From positions 1,539,425 through 1,603,424 of the forward strand of contig BCIH01000003.1 in NCBI GenBank assembly GCA_002897115.2: a DNA stretch of 64,000 nucleotides, read 5' to 3'. Position 1 is the stretch's first letter. Each line of letters opens with the position of its first letter. Position numbers and translations under genes: made by a program. This stretch comes from Prototheca cutis (lineage: Eukaryota > Chlorophyta > Trebouxiophyceae > Chlorellales > Chlorellaceae). The notes under the pieces are model-generated. The model made no database searches and had not been told where the DNA came from. It saw only the letters and a list, made by a program, of their open reading frames with translations. Shown piece after piece: positions 1 to 62,751 of the stretch.

Positions 1-938
1 CCTCTGGCGTCACCCGGGCGGCCCTGCGCGGCTGCTGCACGGGAGCGGGGCCGACGGCGCTGCCGCCCTGTCCGCCCTCGTGCCGTGCAATGAAAAACCG
101 GTTGCCTTGCGCGGACAGTCCGTCGAGCCTGTCCAGCACGCCGGTCACAACGGCGCGCAGCCTGGCCGGGATCTGCATTGGATGATTGGATTACTTCCAT
201 GGAGTGCGCAGATGTGCAATGGAAGGGCCAGTTCGGCAACCTCTCACCACAAGCAAAGGAAGCAACGACACATACCTTCCAGTTTTGGATATTGGCAACA
301 TTGGCGTTCCAGAGGGCGCCTCCCAGAATCCCTGCCGCGGCGGCGACGAGCCCCGCCTGACCCGCCAGAAGGGCCAGCTGCGCGCAGCCGGCGTAGACAA
401 ACAGCTTGTCATTCAGCGGCACGCCCGCAACGGCAAAGTCCTGCAGGCTTGGCACTGCCAGCCAGTAGCTCGCGAGGTCGGAGAAGACGAGGAGGTAGGG
501 TCCCGGCGCAGGGGTCAAGCGCAGCAGCCGGCACAGCGCGGCCTGAGCAGCCCAGGCCGCGCCACAGGCCGCCAGCCGCGCTCCGACGCTCCTGGCAGAG
601 CCCTCCAGCCTCTCCAGCACACGGAAGCAGTACAGCATGCTGGCACCGATGAACAGGGCGCTGGGACCGTGAAACTGGAAGCTCCGGAGCAGGGTACCCA
701 CAGCGCTCGCCCTGCCCCTGGACCGTCTGGCCAGCACATCGGCTGCCAGGCTGGAGGCCACCGTTGCCCAGAAAAGGCCCTTGGTCAGCGGAGCCCCCCC
801 TGCAGAGGGATGGGGAGCCAGGGTGAGCGCCGGTGAGCGCTCAGAGGTAGTTGCAACCAGAACCCCGGGTGTGCGGAGCCCCGCGACAAATGCCCCGCCG
901 CACAACTTACGGAATCCGGAGAGGCTCCTTGAAGACAT
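1..938 (-). CDS. UBAC2: UBAC2-like rhomboid pseudoprotease, 3' end cut by window edge
   Basis: Three exons are visible: 911-938, 276-799 and <1-172. All have GT-AG borders and matching phases. The ATG at 938 opens MSSRSLSGFRGAPLTKG, the short N-terminus plus 'AP(V/L)TKG' first helix of plant UBAC2-like proteins. Hydrophobic segments follow (around SALFIGASMLYCFRVLE, GPYLLVFSDLASYWLAV and KLFVYAGCAQLALLAG). The family is a catalytically dead rhomboid in the ER membrane that helps ER-associated degradation and usually ends in a UBA domain. That C-terminus would lie left of base 1, so its presence cannot be checked. I see no rhomboid Ser/His dyad. About 241 residues are visible. The family call is from recognised spacing and motifs and is fairly secure; the exact subfamily is less so. 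Confidence 0.75.
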   Translation of the reverse strand, partial: MSSRSLSGFRKLCGGAFVAGLRTPGVLVATTSERSPALTLAPHPSAGGAPLTKGLFWATVASSLAADVLARRSRGRASAVGTLLRSFQFHGPSALFIGASMLYCFRVLERLEGSARSVGARLAACGAAWAAQAALCRLLRLTPAPGPYLLVFSDLASYWLAVPSLQDFAVAGVPLNDKLFVYAGCAQLALLAGQAGLVAAAAGILGGALWNANVANIQNWKVCVVASFACGERLPNWPFHCTSAHSMEVIQSSNADPGQAARRCDRRAGQARRTVRARQPVFHCTARGRTGRQRRRPRSRAAAAQGRPGDAR

Positions 939-8272: not shown

Positions 8273-11219
8273 TCACGAGTTGGAAAGCGAGGCTGACAGC
8301 TTCTGGAAGCTTGCCGCAATGTTTCCATTCTCTCCGGTCTGCTTGTGGCCTCTGACCTTCTTCATCGGGCTGGTCACGGGAGTCGCACGGCCAGACAGGA
8401 ACGTGTTGAGCTTGCCTGCAGGTGGGGTTTGAAGCTAGGAGGTGGGAGTGCTGATGCACGAGAGGGAATCGCCGACGCACGCACACAACTCCTGGTCTGG
8501 GCGATGCAGCATCCTGAGGGCAGCATGCCATTCTTCTCTCCCCAACAGGAACAAACAAGCAGACAAGTCACATGCTGTCGCACCTGCGGCCGCCAGGATA
8601 AGTCCCAGGAAGAATGGCGATGCCTTCAACGGACGCGACTTGAACTCCGGGTGGAACTGCGGCGGACAGGTGCATGATAGAAGTGTGGGCGGGGCAGCGG
8701 CGATTCCGGGTGCGCAGTTCTCAGCCGTCCCAGAGCGGGCTGCATTCCTTCCGCCTCGACACGCACACGCACACCCACATCCACCTCCAACCAAGCACCG
8801 CAACCCCTACCGACCGCACACACCTGGGCAGCCACGAAATAGGGGTGGTCGCGCAGCTCCAGGATGCCCATGCGCGTGCCCATCTCGTCGCGGCCTACAA
8901 ACCTCAGGCCCGCCTCCTCCAGCTGCTGCACGTACTCGGGGTTGATCTCATACCTACGTGCATTGGTTGGAGTGTGTGAATGGGTGCGGGAGAGCGGGGA
9001 TGGGAAGACGTCACGAAGCATGGATGCAGGGCCACAACACAGAGGCCATCTCGCCCACCACCACCACATTCCTACCCCCACCAACCACCCCCAAACCCTC
9101 CTCGACTCACCTGTGGCGGTAGCGTTCGTCGATAAACTGCTCCACCTGGTAGAGCTTGGCCGCGACGCAGTCGGTGGTCTCCAGGATGGTGCGGCGGGAT
9201 CCCAGGCGCATGGTGCCGCCCTTGTGCGTGGTGGAGATTTCGGGCATGAACACGACGACGGGGTGTGGCGTGGCCGAGTCCCACTCGGTGGAGTTGGCCC
9301 CCTCCAGGCCCAGCACGTTGCGCGCAAACTCGATCACCGCGATCTGCATGCCCAGGCAGATGCCAAAGTACGGCACGCCGTTCTCGCGCGCGTACTTGGC
9401 CGCTGCAATCTTGCCCTCCGTCCCGCGGCCACCAAAGCCGCCGGGGACCAGGATGCCGTCCGCGGCACGGAGCACCGCCCACGCCGCGTCGTGTGCGGCC
9501 TGGTCGTGCGGCGTGTCGGCTGTCGCGGGCTCCAGGTCGCCAGACTCCAGAATTTCCAACTGCAGCTTCCGGTTGGCCGCCAGGCATGCATGCTGCAGCG
9601 CCTTGGTCACCGACAGGTATGCGTCCATCAGCTCCACGTACTTGCCCACCAGAACAATCTTCACAGGCTGCACACACGAGTTGGAAGAGGTGGCCAGGGC
9701 GAGCGGGTTTGTTGCTGGGCACCCGCGTGTGGCCGGGGAAGCGTGTGCACACGCGCATGCGCACATGCATGAACCCGCTCGCATGTCGACAGCCAGCTCG
9801 CCACCCACCCAACTTCAAAACAACGGCGACCCCACTAAAAAGGCGTACCTCCTTGAGCGAGTCCCACTTGTCGGCGATGTCGGCCTTCCAGCGCCCCATG
9901 TCGATGCGCGCGGCGTGTGCCTCGAGGCCCAGCACCTTGCACAGCGTGGCGTGCGCGCCCTGCTGCATCATCATCAGCGGCACGCGCCAGATGTTGGACA
10001 CGTCGTGCATGGTCAGCACCTGCTCTGGGTTCACGTGGCAGAAGGAGGCCAGCTTCTCCTGCACGGGCCGGCCCAGGGGCTCGGAGCTGCGGCACGCCAG
10101 CAGCGACGGGTTCAAACCCAGCGACCGCAGCGTCGCCACGCTGTGCTGCGTGGGCTTGGTCTTCTGCTCGCCCACTGCGCCGATGACGGGCACCAGGCTG
10201 ACATGCACCACGCAAAAGTTGCCTGCGCCCACACGGAACTGGAACTGGCGCAGCGCCTCGATGAACGGCATCGACTCGATGTCGCCCACAGTCCCGCCCA
10301 GCTCAATCACGCAGACCTCCGGCAACGCACCGCTGCCGTCCACGGGCACGTGCGCCACGCGCTCGATCCAGTCCTGGATCTCATTGGTGATGTGAGGCAC
10401 GACCTGCACCGTCTTGCCCAGGTAGTCGCCGCGACGCTCACGCTCAATCACCGTCTGCGCCAGGAATGGGGTGGTGCGGTGGTCGGGGTGGAAACGATGG
10501 GATGGCGAGTGTGAGACTCCTCAAACCACGCAAACAGCGCTTCTCATACTCATCGGGGTTCACCGACTCGATAGGAAGCACTGAACGCCTTCTATTCCCC
10601 AATCATCAGTAACCCCAAACGCCCCCCAACTCCCGCACCTGGTAAATCTTGCCCGTGGTGAGGTTGTTGTTGCGGCTCAGGGAGATGTCCAGGAAGCGCT
10701 CGTAGTTTCCGAGGTCCAGGTCAGCCTGCAGAGGGGCGGGCGTGGGACGGTGTGAGCGAGCTGTGGGCGTGGGACGGTGTGAGCGAGCTGTGGCCATGGC
10801 ACGGCAAGACCTCCTGTACCTCCCACCGCACAGGGGACGCCCCAGCATGCAGTGCAGGCTGTTCTTTGCATGCTCGCAGCCCATGTCGTACCTCACCACC
10901 GTCGTCCAGCACGAACACCTCCCCGTGCTCCAACGGAGACATCGTTCCCGCGTCCACATTGAGGTAGGGGTCTGCAGCGCGCAGGGAGGGCCAGGTTTAT
11001 GGCTTGGTCTCGCGGTCGACCACATGGCATGGCTCCAGCGGCCTCCCAACACTGTCTCAAACTCGAGCAGTCAATCCGCACAGATTCGTAGGGTAACACA
11101 CCGATTTTAAGGGAGGTCACGCGCAGGCCGCATGCCTTCAGCAGCACCCCAATGGAGGAGGCCGTCACGCCCTTGCCCAAACCACTGACCACACCGCCGG
11201 TCACCAGGATGTACTTCAT
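8273..11219 (-). CDS. CTPS: CTP synthase (597 aa, eight exons)
   Basis: Makes CTP from UTP, ATP and glutamine, the last step of pyrimidine nucleotide synthesis. Exons: 11102-11219, 10892-10971, 10639-10725, 9849-10454, 9111-9667, 8824-8953, 8584-8656 and 8273-8415; all GT-AG, 598 codons including stop. The N-terminus [17 protein letters not shown] is the synthetase P-loop. [20 protein letters not shown] and [13 protein letters not shown] are synthetase-domain signatures. Exon 5 holds the class-I glutaminase: PGGFGGRG, then the nucleophile in GICLGMQ. Exon 7 opens FHPEFKSRP, the His/Glu of the triad. All catalytic parts look intact. Length matches eukaryotic enzymes. The long plus-strand ORFs over exons 4-5 are shadows caused by high GC. 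Confidence 0.96.
10738..10791. repeat. Tandem duplication, two 27-bp units
   Basis: Two exact copies of a 27-bp GC-rich unit, 10738-10764 and 10765-10791, inside the second intron of the CTP synthase gene. Confidence 0.9.
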
Positions 11220-32039: not shown

Positions 32040-32140
32040 GTCGATGTAGTATAACGGTCAGTATACGTGCCTGTCAATTGGTACTGTGGTGCTCACTCCT
32101 ACGGGACGCACGTGATCCGGGTTCGATTCCCGGCATCGGC
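32040..32140 (+). tRNA. trnD-GUC: tRNA-Asp(GTC) with a 30-nt intron
   Basis: The 7-bp acceptor stem pairs 32040-32046 with 32134-32140 (one G-T pair). The anticodon stem CGTGC/GCACG encloses loop C-T-G-T-C-A-C with anticodon GTC. The T arm is CCGGG-TTCGATT-CCCGG. A 30-nt insert sits after position 37, the canonical place for a nuclear tRNA intron. A T run follows directly (about 32145-32150), acting as an RNA polymerase III terminator. It lies in the space between the divergent PDX2 and UDP-glucose dehydrogenase genes. Confidence 0.93.
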
Positions 32141-33013
32141 GAAACCTTTTTTGGGTGGGTCAACTTTTTTTGGCCTCCGTGCTTTGTGTTGACACTTGCA
32201 GTTAACTAACCAATCATAGAGCCGCTTTGGCTAGAGGCAACTGCATCTTTTAGATCCCAGATGCCACAGTCTTGTGATGTACCATCAATCCCCACATGGA
32301 CCAAGACTCAACGATCCCCACCGGTGTCAGCATGCATGGCATTTCGCTTTCTCTGGTCAACTGTGATCGTTGATGGTGCTCCACTGCCAAACAGAGGATT
32401 AGCGCATGACAGCGTGGCCCCACGGTGGTTCAGTAGCTTCTGTCCTGTCGCATCCAGAGCTGGCATTTCTTGCAGCAGCATGCATGAGAAGATATCCCGC
32501 AAGTTGGTGTCGTTTGTGTGGGGCATGCAGCTCAGAACACCAGTCCATCGTCCCCCCGGAGATGGCAGCCCAGACGCTGTGCAGGTATGAGATGATCCTG
32601 ACCTCCAAGGAACAGGCCTGCCTGCTACGCTGCCATGCACAGGAGAGCATTCCCAGTCGAAGACGAGTTGAGAACAACAATATTTTGCTTGTCAAAATGT
32701 GGAATGTAGGAAGGGTTGAACGATCAGCTGTCCGTTAGTCATCGCGATCACTCCGGTCCGCTGAGGCGGGACTGTGCCCCGGCCACGGAGTCGAGGCAGG
32801 AACTGCACTTTCCGGTAAAGGTCGCCAGAGAGCAAATCTGCAATAGAAAGGCGCGGACCAGGACGGAACACCTCGGCATTTCATAGTTGACTCTTTTAAA
32901 GCATTTAATTACACCTTTTGCTCCGCCAAGGCGTACAGAGCTATTCTCCCTCCTATTGGTACCTCGTCCAAGAGGGCATCCTCAGCGCCGGTCCTGTCCG
33001 CGGCAAACTCATC
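32141..33013. other. Intergenic, no gene recognised
   Basis: 870 bp between tRNA-Asp and UDP-glucose dehydrogenase. It includes two T runs just after the tRNA (Pol III termination). Short overlapping ORFs on both strands lack motifs. The last 200 bp should carry the UGD promoter. Confidence 0.5.
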
Positions 33014-35860: not shown

Positions 35861-35882
35861 CCACGGTCGGATCCGTTTAACT

Positions 35883-35975
35883 CCGTATTCCGAAAGGGCG
35901 TGGGTTCGAATCCCACTGGCGACAGTAACAACTGTCGGTCGCTATGGGGGAGTGGTCTAACTCGATACGTTAAGG
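35883..35975 (+). tRNA. trnL-AAG: Circularly permuted tRNA-Leu(AAG)
   Basis: The 3' half of the tRNA lies upstream of its 5' half. The 3' half (35883-35924) holds the anticodon-stem strand CGTAT, a long variable arm (CC-GAAA-GG), T arm GTGGG-TTCGAAT-CCCAC, acceptor strand TGGCGAC and discriminator A. After a 13-nt spacer (35925-35937) comes the 5' half (35938-35975): acceptor strand GTCGCTA, D arm with GGG/CTC stem and a GG-containing loop, anticodon-stem strand ATACG, then TTAAGG with anticodon AAG. All stems pair across the halves: acceptor 7 bp, anticodon 5/5 bp. The mature ends meet between positions 37 and 38. Flanks 35865-35871 and 35979-35985 can pair over about 7 bp to extend the anticodon helix, and TTTTT follows at 35988-35992. 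Established for red algae and prasinophytes; here deduced from sequence. Confidence 0.87.
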
Positions 35976-35987
35976 AATTCCGATCTC

Positions 35988-35992
35988 TTTTT
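35988..35992 (+). terminator. Pol III terminator of the permuted tRNA
   Basis: Five T residues directly after the 5'-half trailer of the permuted tRNA-Leu gene. Confidence 0.65.
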
Positions 35993-38398: not shown

Positions 38399-41023
38399 TT
38401 ACCCACCTGTTTGGCACCCAGGACAAGGGGAATCAGTGACTCGGGCTCCAGTGCCTGTGTGGCTTCGTCGATGAGGACTCTGCGGAAGCGAAAGTGCGCC
38501 AGACGCGGGTCCCCGGCGCCCACGCATGTCGCGCAGACGACGTCGGCGGCCTGCAGCACCTCGCGTTCCATGCTCCGCAGCAGCGTCCGGTGCTTACGCT
38601 CATCTGTAGGTGGGGGCGATTGTGCGTGCGTTTGCTCGCTCCAGAATCGCCCAGAAGAAAGAAAGGGGGTCTTCCGTGCCCCCCCACCGGTGCGCTCCAG
38701 CGCGCATCTCTACAGCCACATCTCTACACCCACATCTCCGCCAACAAGCAAAAAAACACATGCAGCCATCCGCCCAGGTGACACGCCCAACCTTGGGCAG
38801 AGAGTTCACCCAGCTCGTCCTTGAGCTGCTGGAGTTTGTGGAGTTCAGGAGACTCGAGGGCAGCCAGGGCCTTGACCTGGGCGTGCAGGGTGAGGTGCTC
38901 GATGCCCGTGGCCACGGCCTCGCGGGACCGGGCCTGCAGGCGGACGACCTTGAGCCCCGTCAGTGCCGTGCGCTCGGCGAGGTGGTCGACCGCGATGTTG
39001 GAGGGTGCGGTGACAAGGACCTGGCCCCCGCCCGGCTGCCGTGCGAGCGCATAGACGACGCTGGCGCTGGTCACCGTCTTGCCCGTGCCGGGGGGTCCCT
39101 GGATCAGGGACAGCGGCGAGCGAAGCACGCGGGCCACGGCATCGGCCTGGCTGGTGTTGAGCTCGGGGAGCCCAGGGGCTGACAGCGACTTGGGCACACG
39201 TGTCTTGAGCTCCAGCTCCTCCACGGGGTGCCCCAGAATGCGGTGGTAGAGGTACCCGCTCACGCTCGTCTGGTCCACTGCAAACGCCTTCATCGCGGCA
39301 TGCATGCGCTCAAACGTCGCGCCCTTCCACACAAACTCCACACGGTAGCCCGTTGTGACGTCCGTCGGTGGTGGCGAGCGGTCTTGGCCCTTTTCGCGGC
39401 CACGGAGCTCGACAACGATCTCCTCCCCAGCCTCGGCCAGGCGGACGACGGTGCCGACGGCGGCCCAGGGCGCGGCGCCCAGGCGCGGGCACGGGTGGCG
39501 CAGGAGCAGCTCGTCGCCGATCACGACACGCAGGTCCCCCGCGTCGCGGGCAAAGCAGAACCGGGCGGTGGCCTTCTTGTTCAGGCCCACGGCCCACTGC
39601 AGCGACACGTCGTCACGGGACAGGCTCTCCTTGGCGGCGCGGTCGTGGTCGGCCTCCAGCTTGATCAGCGGGCCAAAGATGTTTTGAAAGGCGTATGCGT
39701 CCTCGTACCGCAGCGCCACGGGGCACGGCTCGTCCTCGGCGCTGGGGGGTTCAAGGTCGTCCAGCCCCGCGCCGGGGTCGCGGCGCCACGCAGCCTCCAA
39801 CGCCGCCACCGCAGCGGGGGTCACGTGCCGCGCCCGCGCCAACTCCCCCGGCTCCGGTGGCCGCACCAGCCAGTCCACAAACGCACGGTCCTCCACCAGT
39901 GGCGCCCATGCGGCCACGTCCAGGTCCAGGTCCTTGATCGTCGGGTGCGACGCCGGCGTGTCCCGCGCCAGCAGCACCACCGTGTGCTCCCCGGCCAGCG
40001 GCACGAAACCCAGCGCAAACACGTTCCGTGAGCCTGTGGCGTAACATTCCAGCACCGTTTCGCCCAGCGGCGAGTCACGGTGCAGCGACACCTCTTTGCA
40101 CTTGGCACGCACTGCGCATGGATGTTTGACAGGTGTGTGTGTGTGTGTGGATGATTGGGTGGGGCCCGCGTTGTCAGTCAGAACCCCATATGTGAGTCCT
40201 TCCTTACATGCACACAAGAAAACCAACACCACTATCCACTTGCCAAGGTGTGTGATGATGCAAGAAGCACTGCCAGTGACGCGGCCGTTGCAAAACCACT
40301 TGCCAGTGGTCATGCACTTGACCACCGATTCTGGGTTGTGGATGCCGCAGTAGCTGCCAGGGTGCGCAGGTGAGACTCGTTGAACTGGTGCAATCTGAGA
40401 CGAGATGCAGTGCCCCGTGGTGTACGCATGGATGGAGAACAAAAACTAATGTCTGCTGCGAGGAGCAGTTAACGTCAACGCCCCCAGTTCTCCTCCCCAG
40501 CTCGCCTTCACCACCAAGCCCACGTACGCGCAGGCCCACTCGGGCGCCTTGACAATGGGCTCGCCATTCTCCTCGCCAAATCCATCGAATGCATCGTGCA
40601 GGCTGAGCTGGCTGAGGCCCGTCTCTGACAGCCCACCATCATAACTCAGCGCCTGCGACGCCTGGGAGGCCAGGGCCACCGGCGCCGCCGCTGCGGCCTG
40701 CACGCAGCAGTGACTCGAGCAAAAGGCGGGTTCAAGAGACATGTACGGCTTCCCAGCGTTTATTAGACCGGGTTCCAAGAGCCGGTACACATGCATAGCC
40801 TTGGCATGCATGTGATCTTGACCCGTCTCCTGCCCAGCCAGGTCACGGGCCCCACCTCCTCGTAGTGTGACAGTCCAGGCAGCCCTGAGGCGGCGTCCTG
40901 GGTGTTAAAGTCCAGGAATGAAAAGTCCACTTGGCTCCCAAGCTGCGTCGCCGTGATTTCGCCAACATCATAGGCGCTCTGCACCTCCGACAGAGGCTGC
41001 GAAAACAGGCCCCGCCCAGCCAT
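36712..41023 (-). CDS. UPF1: UPF1 RNA helicase (1024 aa, eight exons)
   Basis: ATP-driven 5'-3' helicase of nonsense-mediated mRNA decay. Exons: 40856-41023, 40528-40697, 40244-40353, 38792-40111, 38407-38603, 37466-38195, 37047-37259 and 36712-36878; 1025 codons including stop. The Cys/His-rich domain starts [13 protein letters not shown] and continues KWFCNGR. The helicase core has QGPPGTGKT (motif I), [12 protein letters not shown] (II), [10 protein letters not shown] (III), QYRMHP (IV), [12 protein letters not shown] (V) and [11 protein letters not shown] (VI). The C-terminal exons read [10 protein letters not shown] and [13 protein letters not shown], like the plant tail. Introns 3 (GCAAGT at 40243) and 6 (GCACGT at 37465) begin with GC; without the second the protein would stop early at ...EGTLAVC. 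Oddity: where other UPF1 proteins have ECYNCGCRN, this reads ECYATGSRN, losing two cysteines of a zinc-binding segment. Confidence 0.93.
38345..38397. repeat. (CA)n microsatellite in a UPF1 intron
   Basis: 53 bp of uninterrupted CA dinucleotide in the intron between exons 5 and 6 of the UPF1 gene. Confidence 0.97.
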
Positions 41024-45844: not shown

Positions 45845-46182
45845 GCACCAGTTTCGTCAAACCATGCGTACCGGTGTATTGCTGCTGCGTCCCTCTCCTT
45901 GCCACACCTCAAACGGTAAAAGAAACCCCCCCAAGGACCATGCTCTCTCTAGACAATCAGTGTTCGGACCGGATATTTACAACAATTGAAGGCCCAGCAG
46001 TCCACGTTCACGGGACGTATCATAATGGAAGCGTGGGCAGGATGCCGCACGATCTTTGCAAAATAAGGGAATACCATGGCACATCGGCAGTCAGCGCTGG
46101 AGGATCAATTATAGCAACCGCTATCCCCCGGTACTGAGCAGCAAGGATCTGGTATACATTCCGGCAGCCAGCGCGTGGCCAA
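45845..46182. other. Convergent 3' flank of PCNA and ABCG genes
   Basis: About 340 bp with no gene. A TGTAA on the minus strand at 45977-45981 is a candidate poly(A) motif for the ABCG gene. Confidence 0.5.
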
Positions 46183-48849
46183 TCACCGCACAACGTGCTT
46201 GATGTAGCTCAGCGCTGCCCATGCACCCATGACAAACACCGCCACAAAGATGGTGAGGTAGCCGAAAAATTGCCACGAATTGTACGTCGCCAGCGCAAAA
46301 TACTCCAGTACCTGTGATGGTGACGATGTATGCAGTGTGTTTGTATGCAGAGTTCTTCGTATGCATGAAGGAAGGAGACTCGTGCATCTTGGGACTACTA
46401 CACCGACGAAGGTTCCCACTTCCTCCCCAAGAAAACAAGATGATAACCACCCCCCCTTCCAGATTGCTACTACTCACGTTTTGGCCGAGGTAGACGACGT
46501 CTTCACCCTTGAATTGGTTGAGCATGAGTGCTCCCCAGGAGTAGTGCAGAAAGTTGACGTACCCAACCCAGCGCCAGTACCAAGGCGTGTTGACCCATCG
46601 GATGAGCAGTCCCGTGAAGAAGAGCATGACAGTGATGAAAACAGGCAGGGCGGCGTTGGCGACATCCATGTTTGGCGAGAGTGCTGCGATAAAGTACCCC
46701 AGGGACACGCCGACCATGATGGAGACCCAGTAGACGAGCCAGAAGAGTGCCCAGCTGCCGTTGAGGTGCAGCGCGTAAAATACGGCAGCAGAGATGGGGA
46801 GCGAGACCACCAGGCCCAGCGAGAACTCTTCGAAAAGCTTGAATCCGAGGTACGTCACGACACGGAACAGGCCGTCGGCGCGCTCTCGCAGGAACAGCGC
46901 GCGTTCCATGAGGATTGCCGGCATGTAGGCGGTGGCAGAGTAGGCGACGACGACGGTCCACATGAACAGCACCGCGACAATGTTGTAGATGTTGCTCTCC
47001 GTCAGATTTTTGCCCACGTGCCAGTAGAGCGAGAAGAGGATGAATCCCATGACAATCTTCTCCGCCAGCCGCGACCCCATCCACAGCGGGTCCTTCAGGT
47101 CGGCCCGCATGCGATACTTGACCAGCGTCTTGAACGCAAACCAGCTGGGCGTCACCGTGGCGCGCTTGACGCTCAGGTACCCCCGCTGGCTCTCCGACAG
47201 CTCCCGCGTCTCGTGCAGCAGCGCCTCCAGCTCCGCTGCGTTGCGTGCGGCCAGGGACGACCCCGCATACCGGGTCGTCAGCTTCTCTGCCTGCTCCTCG
47301 CGGTCGGCCTGCACGACAATGTCGGTCATGTACTCGACGTCCGAGGCACTCATGCGGGGCACGGCGCTGCCGGCGATGTCGCTGGCGCCCTGGCGCAGGA
47401 AGGCGACGGCCTCGGGGCCGTTGGGGCCGAAATACGCGGTGCAGCCTCGCAGCACGATGAACATGCGGTCAAACAGGCGGAAGACGTGGGGCGTGGGAGA
47501 GTGGATGGTCGTGCACACCGTGATGCCCGTCCGCGCCAGCCCCGCCACCGCGTCCATCACCTCATGCGCCGTGTACGAGTCCAGGCCCGTCGTTGGCTCG
47601 TCCAAAAACAACACCAGCGGGTTGGTCACCAGCGCAAGCCCGATGTTGGTGCGCTTGAGTTGGCCGCCCGACACGCCGCGCTTGCTGGGTGTGCCCACAA
47701 GCACATGCTGGCAGCCCTGCAGATTAGATTGTATGTGTGTATATTGTGGGGGGGGGGTGTTAAAGAGGGGGGGTGTTATAGGTGGATCGTCGACAGGACG
47801 TGTGTGTCGTGATTCGTTGGAAAATGGAAGCCAAACTCAGGCAAGCGGACACCATACACACACTGCAGCGAAGAGTTGCTTGCTTGGCACAGCATGACCA
47901 AGCACTGGGGATGGCAATCAAACACAACCAGTTTCTTCTCACCTCGAGACCCAGCTGCGCGATGCTGCGGTCCACCCGTGCCATTTTCTCAGAGTAGGGC
48001 AGGCTCACTCGGGCCTTGAGCTCAGCCGTGTACTGCAGGTTCTCGCGCACGGTGAGGTTGCCAAGCAGCGTATCGAACTGCTCGACGTAGCCGGTGTAGC
48101 GCCGCAGGAAGGCTGTGCTGGCCGCCACACCGCCGTACAGCACCTTGCCTTCAATTTTACCGGCGGTCTTGCGCCCCGCCAGAACGTCCAGCAGCGTTGT
48201 CTTGCCAGAGCCAGACGGGCCTGCAGTGCGGCTGTGAGCAGTCGGGTTAACATCATTGGGAGGGTAAGGGACGCGACTCGGCCCGCGCACCCGCAACCGT
48301 ACTGCAAAAACTGAGCCGGCCATCGTTCCCAGTACTAGACTGATAGACCAGGTTGCCATCGCGACCTGATGCCGCTGTCATGCAGAATGGCCTCTGCGTC
48401 TTATTCGAACAGGCCCATGCCTAAAACCCTAAGAGCCCACACGTACCCATCAGGGCATTGAGTTTCCCGGGCTCAAAGTACCCAGAGACATTGTCCAAGA
48501 GCTTGAGCGTTTCCTTCTTGTTCGCGCTGTTCCGGACGGTATAGGTGAGGTCCTGCAGGCGCAGGGCGCGGGACGAAATAGCCTTGCGCCGCTTGCGCCG
48601 CACGTGCCCGGAACCTGCAGGCTTACTAACGAGCCAGAGGCAAAGACCACCCACAGGAAGGCACCGCACAGAGCTGGCCTCCCTCGCGCGTCATGCACGA
48701 TCATTTACCTGAAATGTCACAAGCATGCCATCCGCAGTGTAAGCCGTCGTGTCGGCGCTGTTCAATCCCGGCGTTGAATCGATGTGTGGGAGGGATGGCT
48801 GGCTCCGTTGTGGGGCCTTTGCCCCATCCTGATCGCGCGTTTCGGCCAT
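46183..48849 (-). CDS. ABCG-family half-transporter (630 aa, five exons)
   Basis: Exports lipids or other hydrophobic compounds across a membrane as a dimer. Exons: 48709-48849, 48447-48552, 47943-48220, 46478-47716 and 46183-46311; 631 codons including stop. The ATP-binding domain comes first: LVTFQDLTYTV, Walker A GPSGSGKTT completed across intron 2, YVEQFDTLLGNLTVRENL (Q-loop), signature VSGGQLKR, Walker B LVLFLDEPTTGLDS and the His of TTIHSP. The ABC2 membrane domain follows, with about six hydrophobic helices (from PLWMGSRLAEKIVMGFILFS to the last near AVFVMGAWAAL). This reverse order is the ABCG hallmark. The ATG at 48849 (MAETRDQDG) gives a ~45-residue hydrophilic lead. The substrate cannot be told from sequence. 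Confidence 0.93.
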
Positions 48850-57816: not shown

Positions 57817-60800
57817 ATGCTATGGCTATGCCTGTGGTTCTGCACGGCAGCCTCTGCAGGCCAGGACCACAAAGGGACCCTGACGGCCGACGATGCCCTG
57901 GCCGCCGCCGCTGAGGCTGCTCGCAGCATGTTCATCGAAGGCTACGCCAACTACACCACTCATGCCTTTCCCATGGCAAGACAGCGATGTGTGCTAGCGA
58001 TGGGTTTGGATATGGTGAAGTTGAATGGAGCGCGACAGCTTTGGTTGCACCATGCTGTTCAAACGTACAGTCCAACACCCCCCCGGCCTGCAGGACAACC
58101 TGCGGCCTCTGTCCTGCAATGGCTCAAATTCCCAGGGTGGGATCGGACTCACCTTGCTGGACAGCCTCGACACTCTGCTGGTACGTCCCTGGTCCCTGGC
58201 TGTGTTGTGAGGACCAGGCGTGGGCTATTGTGGTGGTAGGCGGGCAGAGCGAATCTCTTGAGGGGCAAAGGTGGCCCAGCAAGAGCACTCTGCTGCAGCT
58301 TGTTGCACCGGACAGGGCACACACATGGGCACCCTTTCAACACATGCAGGTTATGGACCGACTGCAAGATTTTCGAGATGCGGTGTGCTGGGCGGGCGGC
58401 GACTGCGCTGCCGGCAGCGCGCCGGGTGGCAGGCTGTCGTTCGACCTGAACGCCTCGGTGCACGTGTTTGAGACCACCATCCGTGCGCTGGGCGCGCTCC
58501 TCTCGGCACACCAGATCGTTGCCAAGGTGGTCTTGCTCCCGTGGTTGGTGGTAGTGTTTGGGGGGGGAGGGAGGGGGGCCCGCCCCCAAGGCCACATGCA
58601 AACCCTGCACGCCTGCCTGCAAATGGAGTGACAATTGACGGGCATCAGCACGTAAACATCCGGGCCCGAGTCCCACAAACTGTTGTTTGGTTTTGCACCT
58701 CATTGTCTGTCTTTCCGCTCCCTGAGCTCTACAGGACCCAACTCTGGTACCTGGGTACACGGGGAGTCTGCTCCACGCGGCCAGGGACCTGGCCGACCGC
58801 CTCGTTCCTTCTTTTCAGACTGGCACCGGCATCCCCGTGTCCAACATCCACCTTCAGCATGGTCAGGTCCGTCGGCATGCTGGCGTGCAGCTGCAGAGGT
58901 GGAACTGAAACTGCTGCCCTTGTTTTCCTCTCCCTTGCCTCTGCCGCTTTCCAGGATGCCTCCATCCACTCAATCATCCCTCCCCCGGCCCCACAAATTG
59001 GACAGCTGTCCAATGAGCCCCGGGACACCTGTACTGCATGTGCCGGCACGCTGCTCCTCGAATTCGGGACCTTGACCAAGCTCACTGGGAACGCCACCTA
59101 CGCCGACCTGGCCACAAGAGCTCTCGAAGCAATCTACTGTAAGTTTTACAGCTTGAGTGCGTACTTGCGGTTGCGGGGAGATGTGTGGGCTATGCACATC
59201 CCTGATTTTCTGGGCCACGAAGGTGAGCCCGGCACCGACCCGGGTTATGCTCACTTCCTCGGCACTGCAGCGCGGCGTTCGGCACTGGGTCTGGTAGGCA
59301 AGACCATCGATGTTGACTCGGGTCTCTGGCTGAGCAAGACAGCTGGCATTGGGGCGGGGCAGGATTCCTACTACGAGTACCTCCTCAAGGTTTGTTTCGA
59401 CAGGGTGTGTGAAACGAATGCCGGCTCCAGCGCCGACTCCAACAACAACCCCAGCTGACCCCGCCGCGATTTCCTTTTGGGGCAGGCTTACCTCGCATTT
59501 GGCAACGAGACGCATTTAGCCTGGGCCGCCGATGCGTACGCGAGCGTGATGGCGCACTGCCTTTTCCACACGCTGCGCACGGGGCAGGCCTGGCTGCTGG
59601 ACGTGGACATGTGGTCGGGGACCAATGCGCACTCCACTGTCTGGGCGCTCGCCGCCTTTTGGCCTGGCCTGCAAGTCCTGGCAGGTGCCCTTTTGTTCAT
59701 GGCCTCGGCTGGGGGAACCGGTTGACGAGCGTGGGCGCCTTTCCGGGGTGTTATGCTGGAGAGGGTTTCCCATCCATCTCCAAGACAGGCTTTTCTGTGA
59801 CTAGAACGACCCTTCTCGCCGATTTTCAATCAAACAGGTCAGCTCGAAAGCGCACGGCGGCAGCATCAGCAGTGGTTTGCGGCTTGGCAGCGGTTTGGCT
59901 GGCTGCCAGAGATGTTTGAGCTTCAAACCGGCACACAACACCCAAAGCTCGATGGTCAGTGTCCCGGAAGTGTGGTGGGTCGCTTAGTCATCTTTTTGAG
60001 AGTTTTCCTTCTTTTGGCGTGGGGTTTATTGCCGGTTGTAAAATTTCCTCCCGGCCCAAACCCCCTGATTGTCTTGCTGCAAGCACATGGGCACGCTGCC
60101 TTGTCCTCCGTCCACTAGGGGCATGCACAGGGTATGCTACAGTGGGTTTCTGATTCTCACATGCCAGTCGCCCCAGCCAACTGACTCCCAACAAACAAAA
60201 CCACAGATTATTTGCTGAGACCAGAGCTGATGGAGTCGACTTTTCTGCTGGCGACAGCAGTGGCGCCGCCCGAGCGTGCTGCCCTGCAGGTGTCGGGCCT
60301 GGGCATGCTCAACACGCTGCGCCGCGGCAGCGCGACACGCTGCGGCTTTGCGGCCATAGACAGCACGGCGACGGGGCGGCAGGCAGACGGCATGGAGTCG
60401 TTCTTTCTTTCCGAGACACTCAAGTACCTGTACCTCCTGTTCCGCCGTGCGTGGGGGGTGCTGGACAACTGGGTGCTGTCCACCGAAGGGCACCTGCTCG
60501 ACGCCTGGGAAGAGGTGCAGGATAGCGGCATGGACGGGCTCACGGCCAACATCACCGATCGGGACTCCATTTCTACGGGAGAACAAACAAAGCAGCAGCA
60601 GGAGTATCTTGCTGCTGGTGCAAACACCTCTCCACCGACAATTCCTGACTCTGCCAAAGTTGATGACGACCAGCAACGGCCCCCACTGACACCAGCGCCT
60701 CCTGAAGACCGGCGATCCTTGCTGGATCGTGTGGCAGCCAAGCTGGCCTGGCGGCGGCCCAGCGGCCTGGGCGCCACCACGACATCGTCCTCTGACGACG

Positions 60801-62751
60801 ACATGGCACAGCTTATCGCGGCGTGTGAGCCATTGTGTCGGGTAAAATCTGAAGACGAAGCGGTGCTCGAGCAAGCTGATTTGGTTTCAGCACTCCCCCT
60901 GCTACATGGGGCGCTTGCGCGCTCGCCATCGCCGCTGATCCGCTGGCGTCGGTGCCGCGCGTGTGTGGCCTTTTCCCGCGCTGTGGGCGAAGCGCAACTG
61001 GCGCGCGGCGCGGCGGCGGGACCCGGCTCGGAGGGTGCCCGGGCTGTCAGCGCCCGCCTGCGTCAGCGCCGCGGTGACCCTCTCGTTCGTTTCTATCTCT
61101 GTGACCTGGCCCGCCGAGGGGGCAGCCTGGCATGCACGCGCATGTGGCGTCTGTACGAGGCGCTGTCGGTCGTCGGGGTCCAGCAAATTCCCTTTGGCAC
61201 CGTCATCCTGGAAGCCGCCCTCGCACCGGATGACCCTGTTGGCAAGGGGCAAGATGACCAAGGTCTGTTGGTCTCATGCTGGTGTCTTGGGTTTGGTGTT
61301 TTTCGTGTGGGTTGCCATCCCAGTGCTGCAGACTCGGTTTGCTTGCTGTCTTTGGTACTATGCCACCAAGATGGTGCCGAGTCGTTTCTGCTGGTGGTGT
61401 TGCAGCGCGCTCTCCCTGGCACGGAGCAGGCCTCAGCGACACGCCAACTTCCCCTTTGCCCCAGGGATCAATCTGCCCTGGGTGAGCATTGATCACGTGG
61501 CAGTAGAGTCGGACCCCGGCAGCTGCGACGGCGATCTGATTGAGCCCCATTGGCAGGCGCCGTTGTTTGACCCCGTGATCGGCGTGCTGGCTGAGTTTGG
61601 GCCTGACTTGGGCAGTGGTGGGCCAGCCAATCAATGCCTTGGTCCCGGCATGCCAGAGGATGAAGAGGACGATGACGATGACGACGAGGATGGCGACGAG
61701 GATGGCGACGAGGATGGCGATGCCAGCGACAACGACGAGGGCAAACTGTCTCCAGGGGCATGCAGCCGATCGCTTCAAGGAGGAGTACCTCCGGGAGACC
61801 ATGGCGGTCAACAGCCAGCCACAGACACGTCTGTCATCGCCGTGATGGCTGAGCCCGAGGACGACCCGCTGCTCTGTGGGCAACTGACTACATCAGCACG
61901 GGCTGCGCCCGCCGACAGTAATCAGGGAGTCATTCTGCTGGCGGAGCGAGGGCTGTGCCAATTTGCAGACAAGGCACGCGAGGCGATGCGCCGCGGCGCT
62001 GTGGGCATGATCGTGATGAATGCCGGGGACGAAGGCGAGCACGACCTCTGGCCCATGGCAGGCGACGGTGACCCTGGTAAGCTGACAGCGGATCATGGGG
62101 TTTGAGTTTGTACTGATCCATTGTGGTGCATGTCTAGCCATTATGCTGACTGTGATCGAACCCCCTTTTTGCTGCTGATCCCAGCTTGGCTATTTGGAGC
62201 AGTGTCACACACCCACACAGACCAAACTGGCACTCCAGACCTTCAAACCCCAACCCCTTCCGGCCTTTTCAATGTATTCAGCTCTGGATTCGCTGCCGCT
62301 GCCGTCGGTCATGGTGAGCATGGCCAGCGGGCGGGAGTTGCGGGCAGCGCTGCGGCGGATGGCGACCCACCACCGGCGACTGGTGGTCCGGCTGCGGGCA
62401 GCTGACGTGACTCCGGCGACTGTGGCCCCCTTCGAGGGCGCCGCCCAGCCCCACACACGGTCCGGAGCGGGGCCGGTTAAAGTGCACATGCTTGTGCCAC
62501 CACAGTCGGAACTTCGCGTCATGCACATGATGGGTCCCGGGCCCGGGGCATTTAACGGCATCATGGAGTCGGTGCTCCAAGCCCTGGAGCAGGAGAACGG
62601 CGGGGTAAGCGGCGGTGCTGCTGAGGCACAGGAGAACAGCGGCGACACTGCTGCTGAGGCGCAGGAGAGCCATGCTGAGGAGGGCACGGCAGAACAAGGG
62701 CAATGCTCCATGATGGCCGAGCCGGGCGGCAGGGCTGATGGAGAGCTCTAG
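57817..62751 (+). CDS. EDEM3: EDEM3-like GH47 mannosidase with PA domain (1086 aa, 11 exons)
   Basis: Trims mannose from glycans of misfolded ER proteins or selects them for degradation. Exons: 57817-57975, 58094-58180, 58350-58526, 58735-58866, 59006-59138, 59271-59389, 59486-59684, 59838-59954, 60207-61262, 61465-62076 and 62282-62751; 1087 codons including stop. A signal peptide (MLWLCLWFCTAASAG) decided the start. GH47 signatures: EGYANYTTHAFPM, DNLRPLSC, LLDSLDTLL, FETTIRALG, TCTACAGTLLLEFG, GIGAGQDSYYEYLLK, RPELMEST and MESFFLSETLKYLYLLF. A protease-associated domain follows (GVILLAERGLCQFADKAREA, later LPSVMVSMASG), which is the EDEM3 architecture. An Asp/Glu run of ~20 residues precedes it (61655-61740). 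Intron 1 starts with GC (ATG/GCAAGA, 57976). Residues between GH47 and PA (~60650-61260) are low complexity and their exon structure is less certain. Confidence 0.88.

Follow-up and report, generated by a model that had tools for sequence, protein, structure and literature searches.

A permuted tRNA-Leu(AAG) gene, very probably in use, in a Prototheca cutis genome in which exchanged tRNA halves appear to be the majority layout

A stretch of 64,000 nucleotides of the Prototheca cutis genome (hereafter the window) contains a leucine tRNA whose 3′ half precedes its 5′ half, which raises the question of whether this locus is a gene that the cell uses or the residue of a rearrangement. From the computational evidence presented here, we put the probability at about 0.92 that it is a working permuted nuclear gene which alone was found to encode tRNA-Leu(AAG) and which belongs to a set of at least 41 permuted loci in the genome.

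All parts of the gene lie on the plus strand of the window (C3:1575307–1575399 on the assembly, from the first to the last nucleotide of the tRNA). The leader (35865–35882) provides one strand of an outer helix (35865–35871) and one strand of a central helix (TTAA, 35877–35880), and its last two nucleotides (35881–35882) lie in the 3′ bulge. It is followed by the 3′ half of the tRNA (35883–35924; 42 nt), assigned from the sequence and from matches to the two covariance models R1 and R2 described below, which consists of C38, the 3′ strand of the anticodon stem (CGTAT, 35884–35888), the variable arm (35889–35899), the T arm (GTGGG-TTCGAAT-CCCAC, 35900–35916), the 3′ strand of the acceptor stem (TGGCGAC, 35917–35923), and the discriminator A (35924). 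After the 13-nt spacer (35925–35937), the intervening sequence that joins the acceptor ends, comes the 5′ half (35938–35975; 38 nt) with the 5′ strand of the acceptor stem (GTCGCTA, 35938–35944), the D arm, the 5′ strand of the anticodon stem (ATACG, 35965–35969), and loop positions 32–37 (TTAAGG, 35970–35975), including the anticodon AAG (35972–35974). The trailer (35976–35987), of which the first nucleotide completes the 5′ bulge and 35979–35985 form the second strand of the outer helix, leads to a T5 run (35988–35992), a candidate Pol III terminator. A previous sequence-only reading had described a 3′ half placed 13 nt before its own 5′ half and followed by a Pol III T run, and the layout read here is the same. 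The order is not the conventional one, the sole exact match of the 5′ half in the genome being that downstream of the 3′ half.

When the halves are put in order, they give an 80-nt type-II tRNA with a short variable arm and a full cloverleaf. The acceptor stem has 7/7 pairs (one G-U) and the anticodon stem 5/5, in agreement with the earlier claim that both stems pair once the halves are exchanged; the T stem likewise has 5/5, so that the acceptor, anticodon, and T pairs are intact at 17 of 17 positions, and the broken stems or lost landmarks expected of a pseudogene were not found. The eukaryotic tRNA landmarks U8, A14, G18G19, U33, TTC-A, and the discriminator are all present. The D stem has three pairs (G10-C25, G11-U24, and G12-C23), of which G11-U24 is the exception among the landmarks, standing in place of the Y11-R24 usual in the A box; Y11 occurs in 39 of the 41 permuted genes of the genome. 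CCA is not encoded in the gene.

The joint falls between positions 37 and 38, as had been proposed, and computed pairing shows that a 3-4-3 bulge-helix-bulge can form around it. U32U33A34A35 of the 5′ half are complementary to UUAA of the leader, forming the central helix; a 3-nt bulge is placed at each predicted cut site (G36-G37^A and C-U^C38), and the outer helix comprises seven pairs, one of them G-U. The outer helix was already part of the sequence-only reading, to which the UUAA central helix is added here. The central and outer helices lower the calculated energy from −19.8 kcal/mol for the cloverleaf alone to −29.7 kcal/mol. When the cloverleaf was imposed, the native leader and trailer gave −36.1 kcal/mol versus −30.05 kcal/mol (sd 2.33) for shuffled ones, and 6 of 300 shuffles were as good. 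Folded without constraints, the precursor reaches its minimum energy (−42.8 kcal/mol) in a structure other than the cloverleaf, which counts against the proposed structure. Among 28 non-redundant permuted genes, pairing was stronger between a leader and the loop and trailer of its own gene (mean, −7.08) than when these were taken from different genes (−4.91; permutation p = 5e-5); for leader and loop alone, the same comparison gave p = 1e-4. Strict 3-4-3 geometry was rejected as a general rule; it is exact in the Leu(AAG) gene and several others, and most other permuted genes fail to pair all four central positions when it is fixed. When offsets were allowed, four positions paired in 17 of the 28 genes versus 20.6% of mismatched leader and loop combinations.

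Production of the mature tRNA would presumably begin with Pol III transcription of the whole unit, from the leader through both halves and the spacer to the trailer, into a single linear RNA ending at the T run. This RNA would fold into the bulge-helix-bulge by means of three helices whose pairing was computed (anticodon stem, 4-bp UUAA central helix, and outer helix of leader and trailer); the tRNA splicing endonuclease may then cut after G37 and before C38, and a ligase, probably RtcB, would join G37 to C38 and thereby close the circle. RNase P and tRNase Z would take out the 13-nt spacer, and CCA would be added, if the pathway that a review outlines for red and green algae (PMC3978253) operates here as well. 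The genome contains two gene loci with the catalytic domain of the tRNA splicing endonuclease (PF01974) and four exon pieces of RtcB (PF01139) at one locus. No match to the plant-type tRNA ligase family (PF09511) was obtained in the genome, a result that is uninformative since the controls gave no signal either.

Among the other explanations, the one that survives best, itself highly improbable in our estimate, is that a tandem duplication or other rearrangement swapped the halves of a tRNA-Leu gene and left an unused, rearranged pseudogene. Permuted tRNA genes are thought to arise through such rearrangements, and the unusual G11-U24 pair in the D stem would fit an unused locus. Comparison with the conventional tRNA-Leu(CAG) genes (L008 and L009) argues for use. 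These genes belong to the same family as the Leu(AAG) gene and are 74% alike to it over the mature tRNA, with 3′ halves that hardly differ across the variable arm and T arm; they have the ordinary order without an intron and differ in acceptor and anticodon-stem pairs. At pairs 5:68, 6:67, 27:43, 28:42, 29:41, and 30:40, both nucleotides are changed with pairing preserved; at 7:66, a single nucleotide is changed, again with pairing preserved, and the D pairs 11:24 and 12:23 are also changed. Because the first seven of these pairs bridge the upstream and downstream halves, they would be kept only by selection on the re-ordered molecule, as far as two paralogs can indicate. The gene-specific pairing of the bulge-helix-bulge and the presence of a terminator also speak against a pseudogene. 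Moreover, a search for a conventional tRNA-Leu(AAG) gene elsewhere in the genome, one of the checks proposed with the sequence-only reading, found none with the re-ordered DNA query, the Rfam tRNA model (which scored 63 of 246 candidates on the assembly), or three T-loop patterns; a rearranged pseudogene beside an intact copy is therefore left without support. Finally, 40 more loci of the same design, among them every gene found for any of 13 amino acids, would have to be accounted for. The permuted Leu(AAG) gene is thus very probably in use.

More improbable still is that the halves are expressed as two separate split-tRNA transcripts and trans-spliced. Each half is whole on its own, and the leader can base-pair with the trailer; yet the halves lie on one strand only 13 nt apart rather than at separate loci, there is no T4 run in either half or in the spacer, the T5 run comes after the second half, and the spacer is not needed by a trans-spliced product.

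The locus escapes standard scanners, as had been anticipated: ARAGORN (bacterial code setting, no introns) found no tRNA in the 64-kb window, and Rfam at the gathering threshold detected in it only a conventional tRNA-Asp gene and not the Leu(AAG) gene. A Plastid-ycf2 match of Rfam over the same place (21.4 bits versus a cut-off of 65.7) overlaps the T arm on the other strand and was rejected. Covariance model R1 was built from eight type-I tRNAs that this genome encodes conventionally, rotated at 37/38 and provided with random 13-nt spacers, and its training set did not include the Leu(AAG) candidate. On the window with filters off, R1 found the Leu(AAG) gene (35890–35975) with 36.5 bits and an E-value of 7e-8, which is rough owing to a short calibration; the next matches (26.6 and 19.4 bits) were both partial and at the conventional tRNA-Asp, and all else scored 10.4 bits or less. 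Model R2, which is not independent since the Leu(AAG) gene is in its training set, gave 108.5 bits over 35883–35975. When the flanks of the 41 permuted loci were block-shuffled while the T arm and acceptor 3′ strand were kept, none of 205 trials reached a script score of 15 (maximum, 14.9), whereas the permuted genes score 19 or more; the 156 T-loop matches in loci L019–L158 likewise fell into two score groups with none between 15 and 19. Chance likeness or an assembly artefact, in favor of which a draft assembly with some N could be cited, is scarcely credible in view of the match to the independent model, the shuffling results, the gap in scores, and the recurrence of this layout at 41 loci distributed over many contigs.

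The 19,886,974-base, 23-contig assembly that contains the window revealed not one but at least 41 permuted loci. The census is incomplete, and its counts are those of loci found: 41 permuted loci with 28 anticodons versus 18 conventional loci with 11 anticodons, no anticodon being common to both. About seven expected anticodons had no gene found (elongator Met, Lys-TTT, Glu-TTC, Gln-CTG, Ser-AGA, Thr-TGT, and Val-AAC). Among the loci found, 13 amino acids (Ala, Cys, Glu, Gly, His, Ile, Asn, Gln, Ser, Thr, Val, Trp, and Tyr) are represented solely by permuted genes and Lys, Phe, Asp, and initiator Met solely by conventional ones; Leu, Pro, and Arg have both layouts. The permuted genes with several copies include Gly-GCC (four), Glu-CTC (four), and Ala-AGC (three).

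These loci came mainly from three T-loop patterns, GGTTCGANYCC (97 matches), GGTYNNNNGTTCRANYC (37), and GGTTCAANYCC (88), of which every match was read; they hold 40 permuted genes, Leu(AAG) included (23, 13, and 4, respectively), and 17 conventional ones. A permuted Ser-GCT gene was added by a serine 5′-half pattern and the conventional initiator Met gene by Rfam. With two mismatches allowed, a D-arm pattern yielded 224 matches (control counts, 156); the 30 loci retrieved from these added no clear gene. Concatenated plant tRNAs used as DNA queries retrieved the two conventional Lys genes only, or nothing; DNA search is insensitive here, and these results therefore say nothing on absence. Loci with a script score of at least 19 were counted as permuted. 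L134, L189, L191, L160, L161, and L240 are repeats of genes counted elsewhere and did not enter the count a second time, and L166 was left out. The last of these (1448–1531) is a permuted tRNA-like candidate that scores 31.9 bits; its T arm is shortened and its anticodon, GGC, is unusual for a eukaryote, and it is perhaps a decayed copy. L190 was found via a 5′-half pattern and not a T-loop pattern, and its T stem has a mismatch; the Trp gene (L116) has a variable loop of 5 nt (hand-scored) and a T27-T43 mismatch. In one run of R1, all 20 matches of 36.4 bits or more were permuted genes; two further permuted genes, Leu-TAA (24.3 bits) and Ser-TGA (21.2 bits), overlap in score with a non-gene match to a lone Phe 3′ half (25.2 bits). 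In another run, every match above 28 bits was a permuted gene.

Further features of the permuted loci, which are spread over many contigs, were compared. The joint is at 37/38 in all 41, and the spacers are 9–80 nt long (median, 13), with exactly 9 nt in 11 of 41. A run of four or more T occurs within 45 nt downstream in 41/41 loci versus 9.9% of 1030 control windows. Signs of a candidate TATA-like element, expected within 50 bp upstream, are mixed: the A+T content across the 41 loci rises to 0.69 at −45 to −41, and TATA is found within 90 nt upstream in 9/41 versus 3% of control windows; near this zone, the Leu(AAG) gene has only TTTATT. TTTGC occurs in the 80 nt after 28 of the 41 loci versus about 8% of control windows, and is perhaps part of the terminator. 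In the permuted Arg-TCG gene L095 (C18:100850–100948), the spacer contains TTTT within a hairpin loop, which might stop Pol III early. Two permuted Val-CAC genes, L113 and L114 (C10:106087–106201 and 116508–116622), are separated by about 10 kb and oppositely oriented; their 3′ flanks are identical and their spacers different. At L110 (about 169–231, minus strand), next to a permuted Glu gene, a tRNA-Phe-like 3′ half stands alone with T runs after it, and no 5′ half for it was seen nearby. L081 is a short tRNA-like sequence, labeled tRNA-??? by ARAGORN, whose T arm is perfect.

The conventional genes of the genome provide a comparison. Near the Leu(AAG) gene on the plus strand of the window lies a conventional tRNA-Asp(GTC) gene (32040–32141; RF00005, 51.8 bits) with a 30-nt intron at 37/38, which was missed by ARAGORN as run and has two more copies in the genome (L010 and L011). 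The intron-bearing conventional genes are Asp-GTC, Pro-AGG, Pro-CGG, Leu-CAA, and Leu-TAG, with script-scored introns of 30 to 59 nt. They are interrupted at 37/38 like the permuted genes, the halves being in normal order, and are thus probably cut by the same endonuclease. The mature tRNAs (72 nt) of the permuted Pro-TGG gene (L034, C2:935281–935361) and the intron-bearing conventional Pro-CGG gene (L013) differ in a single base, in the anticodon, which points to a recent change of layout.

Permuted tRNA genes are known from Cyanidioschyzon merolae, four prasinophytes, a nucleomorph, and one archaeon, according to a 2014 review, and Leu(AAG) is not among the 34 permuted genes in its Table 1 (PMC3978253). 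The type II (37/38) genes of Ostreococcus, Micromonas, and C. merolae described there resemble the Leu(AAG) gene in having the 3′ half first, a joint at 37/38, a short spacer, a bulge-helix-bulge, a downstream T run, and no encoded CCA (PMC3978253). The permuted share differs: 11 of 43 tRNA genes in C. merolae and three to six genes in each prasinophyte, as given in that review (PMC3978253), versus 41 of the 59 loci found here. In Auxenochlorella UTEX 250-A, where the tRNAscan-SE set was incomplete, permuted tRNA genes were then found in 2025 (PMC12633428, PMC12636532); their number and list are placed in Supplementary Fig. S1, the text giving none (PMC12636532). Auxenochlorella is a sister genus in the same lineage of trebouxiophytes; an ABCG-transporter exon of the window shows 72% identity to Auxenochlorella protothecoides and 51% to Chlorella variabilis, the closest relatives that carry a name. 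No other report of permuted tRNA genes in trebouxiophytes was found among the open-access papers searched for Chlorella, for Prototheca, and for algae since 2015. The Leu(AAG) gene is therefore a new gene of an established class, and the earlier expectation that it would widen the range of permuted tRNA genes has partly been overtaken by the Auxenochlorella report (PMC12636532). In Prototheca wickerhamii, 64 tRNA genes were reported by tRNAscan, with all tRNAs but selenocysteine encoded (PMC7941945); should these be nuclear genes of conventional layout, this sister species would depart from the pattern, which would speak against a lineage-wide rule.

What is surprising is the share, the permuted class appearing to be the majority of tRNA genes in this genome. 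With most tRNAs apparently encoded back-to-front, many of them would become functional only by way of a small circular RNA. It seems likely that the permuted layout is the normal form of nuclear tRNA genes here, that about two thirds of the genes, including the only ones found for 13 amino acids, use circular RNAs, and that the switch is still ongoing, as the Pro-TGG/Pro-CGG pair would suggest. If so, cytosolic translation would depend on RNA circularization as a routine. Permuted tRNA genes have so far passed for curiosities confined to a handful of very small genomes, with at most 11 per species in the review's survey (PMC3978253); a genome with a permuted majority would demonstrate that circular intermediates can sustain the supply of tRNAs. 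Dozens of natural substrates could reveal what the splicing endonuclease needs at the joint, the near-identical permuted and conventional Pro siblings would open the origin of permutation to study, and tRNA counts from standard scanners would be wrong for such genomes. In the remainder of the window, exons were recognized for CTP synthase (9072–10520), UPF1 (38724–40445), an ABCG transporter (46121–47836), and a family 47 glycosidase (60185–61492).
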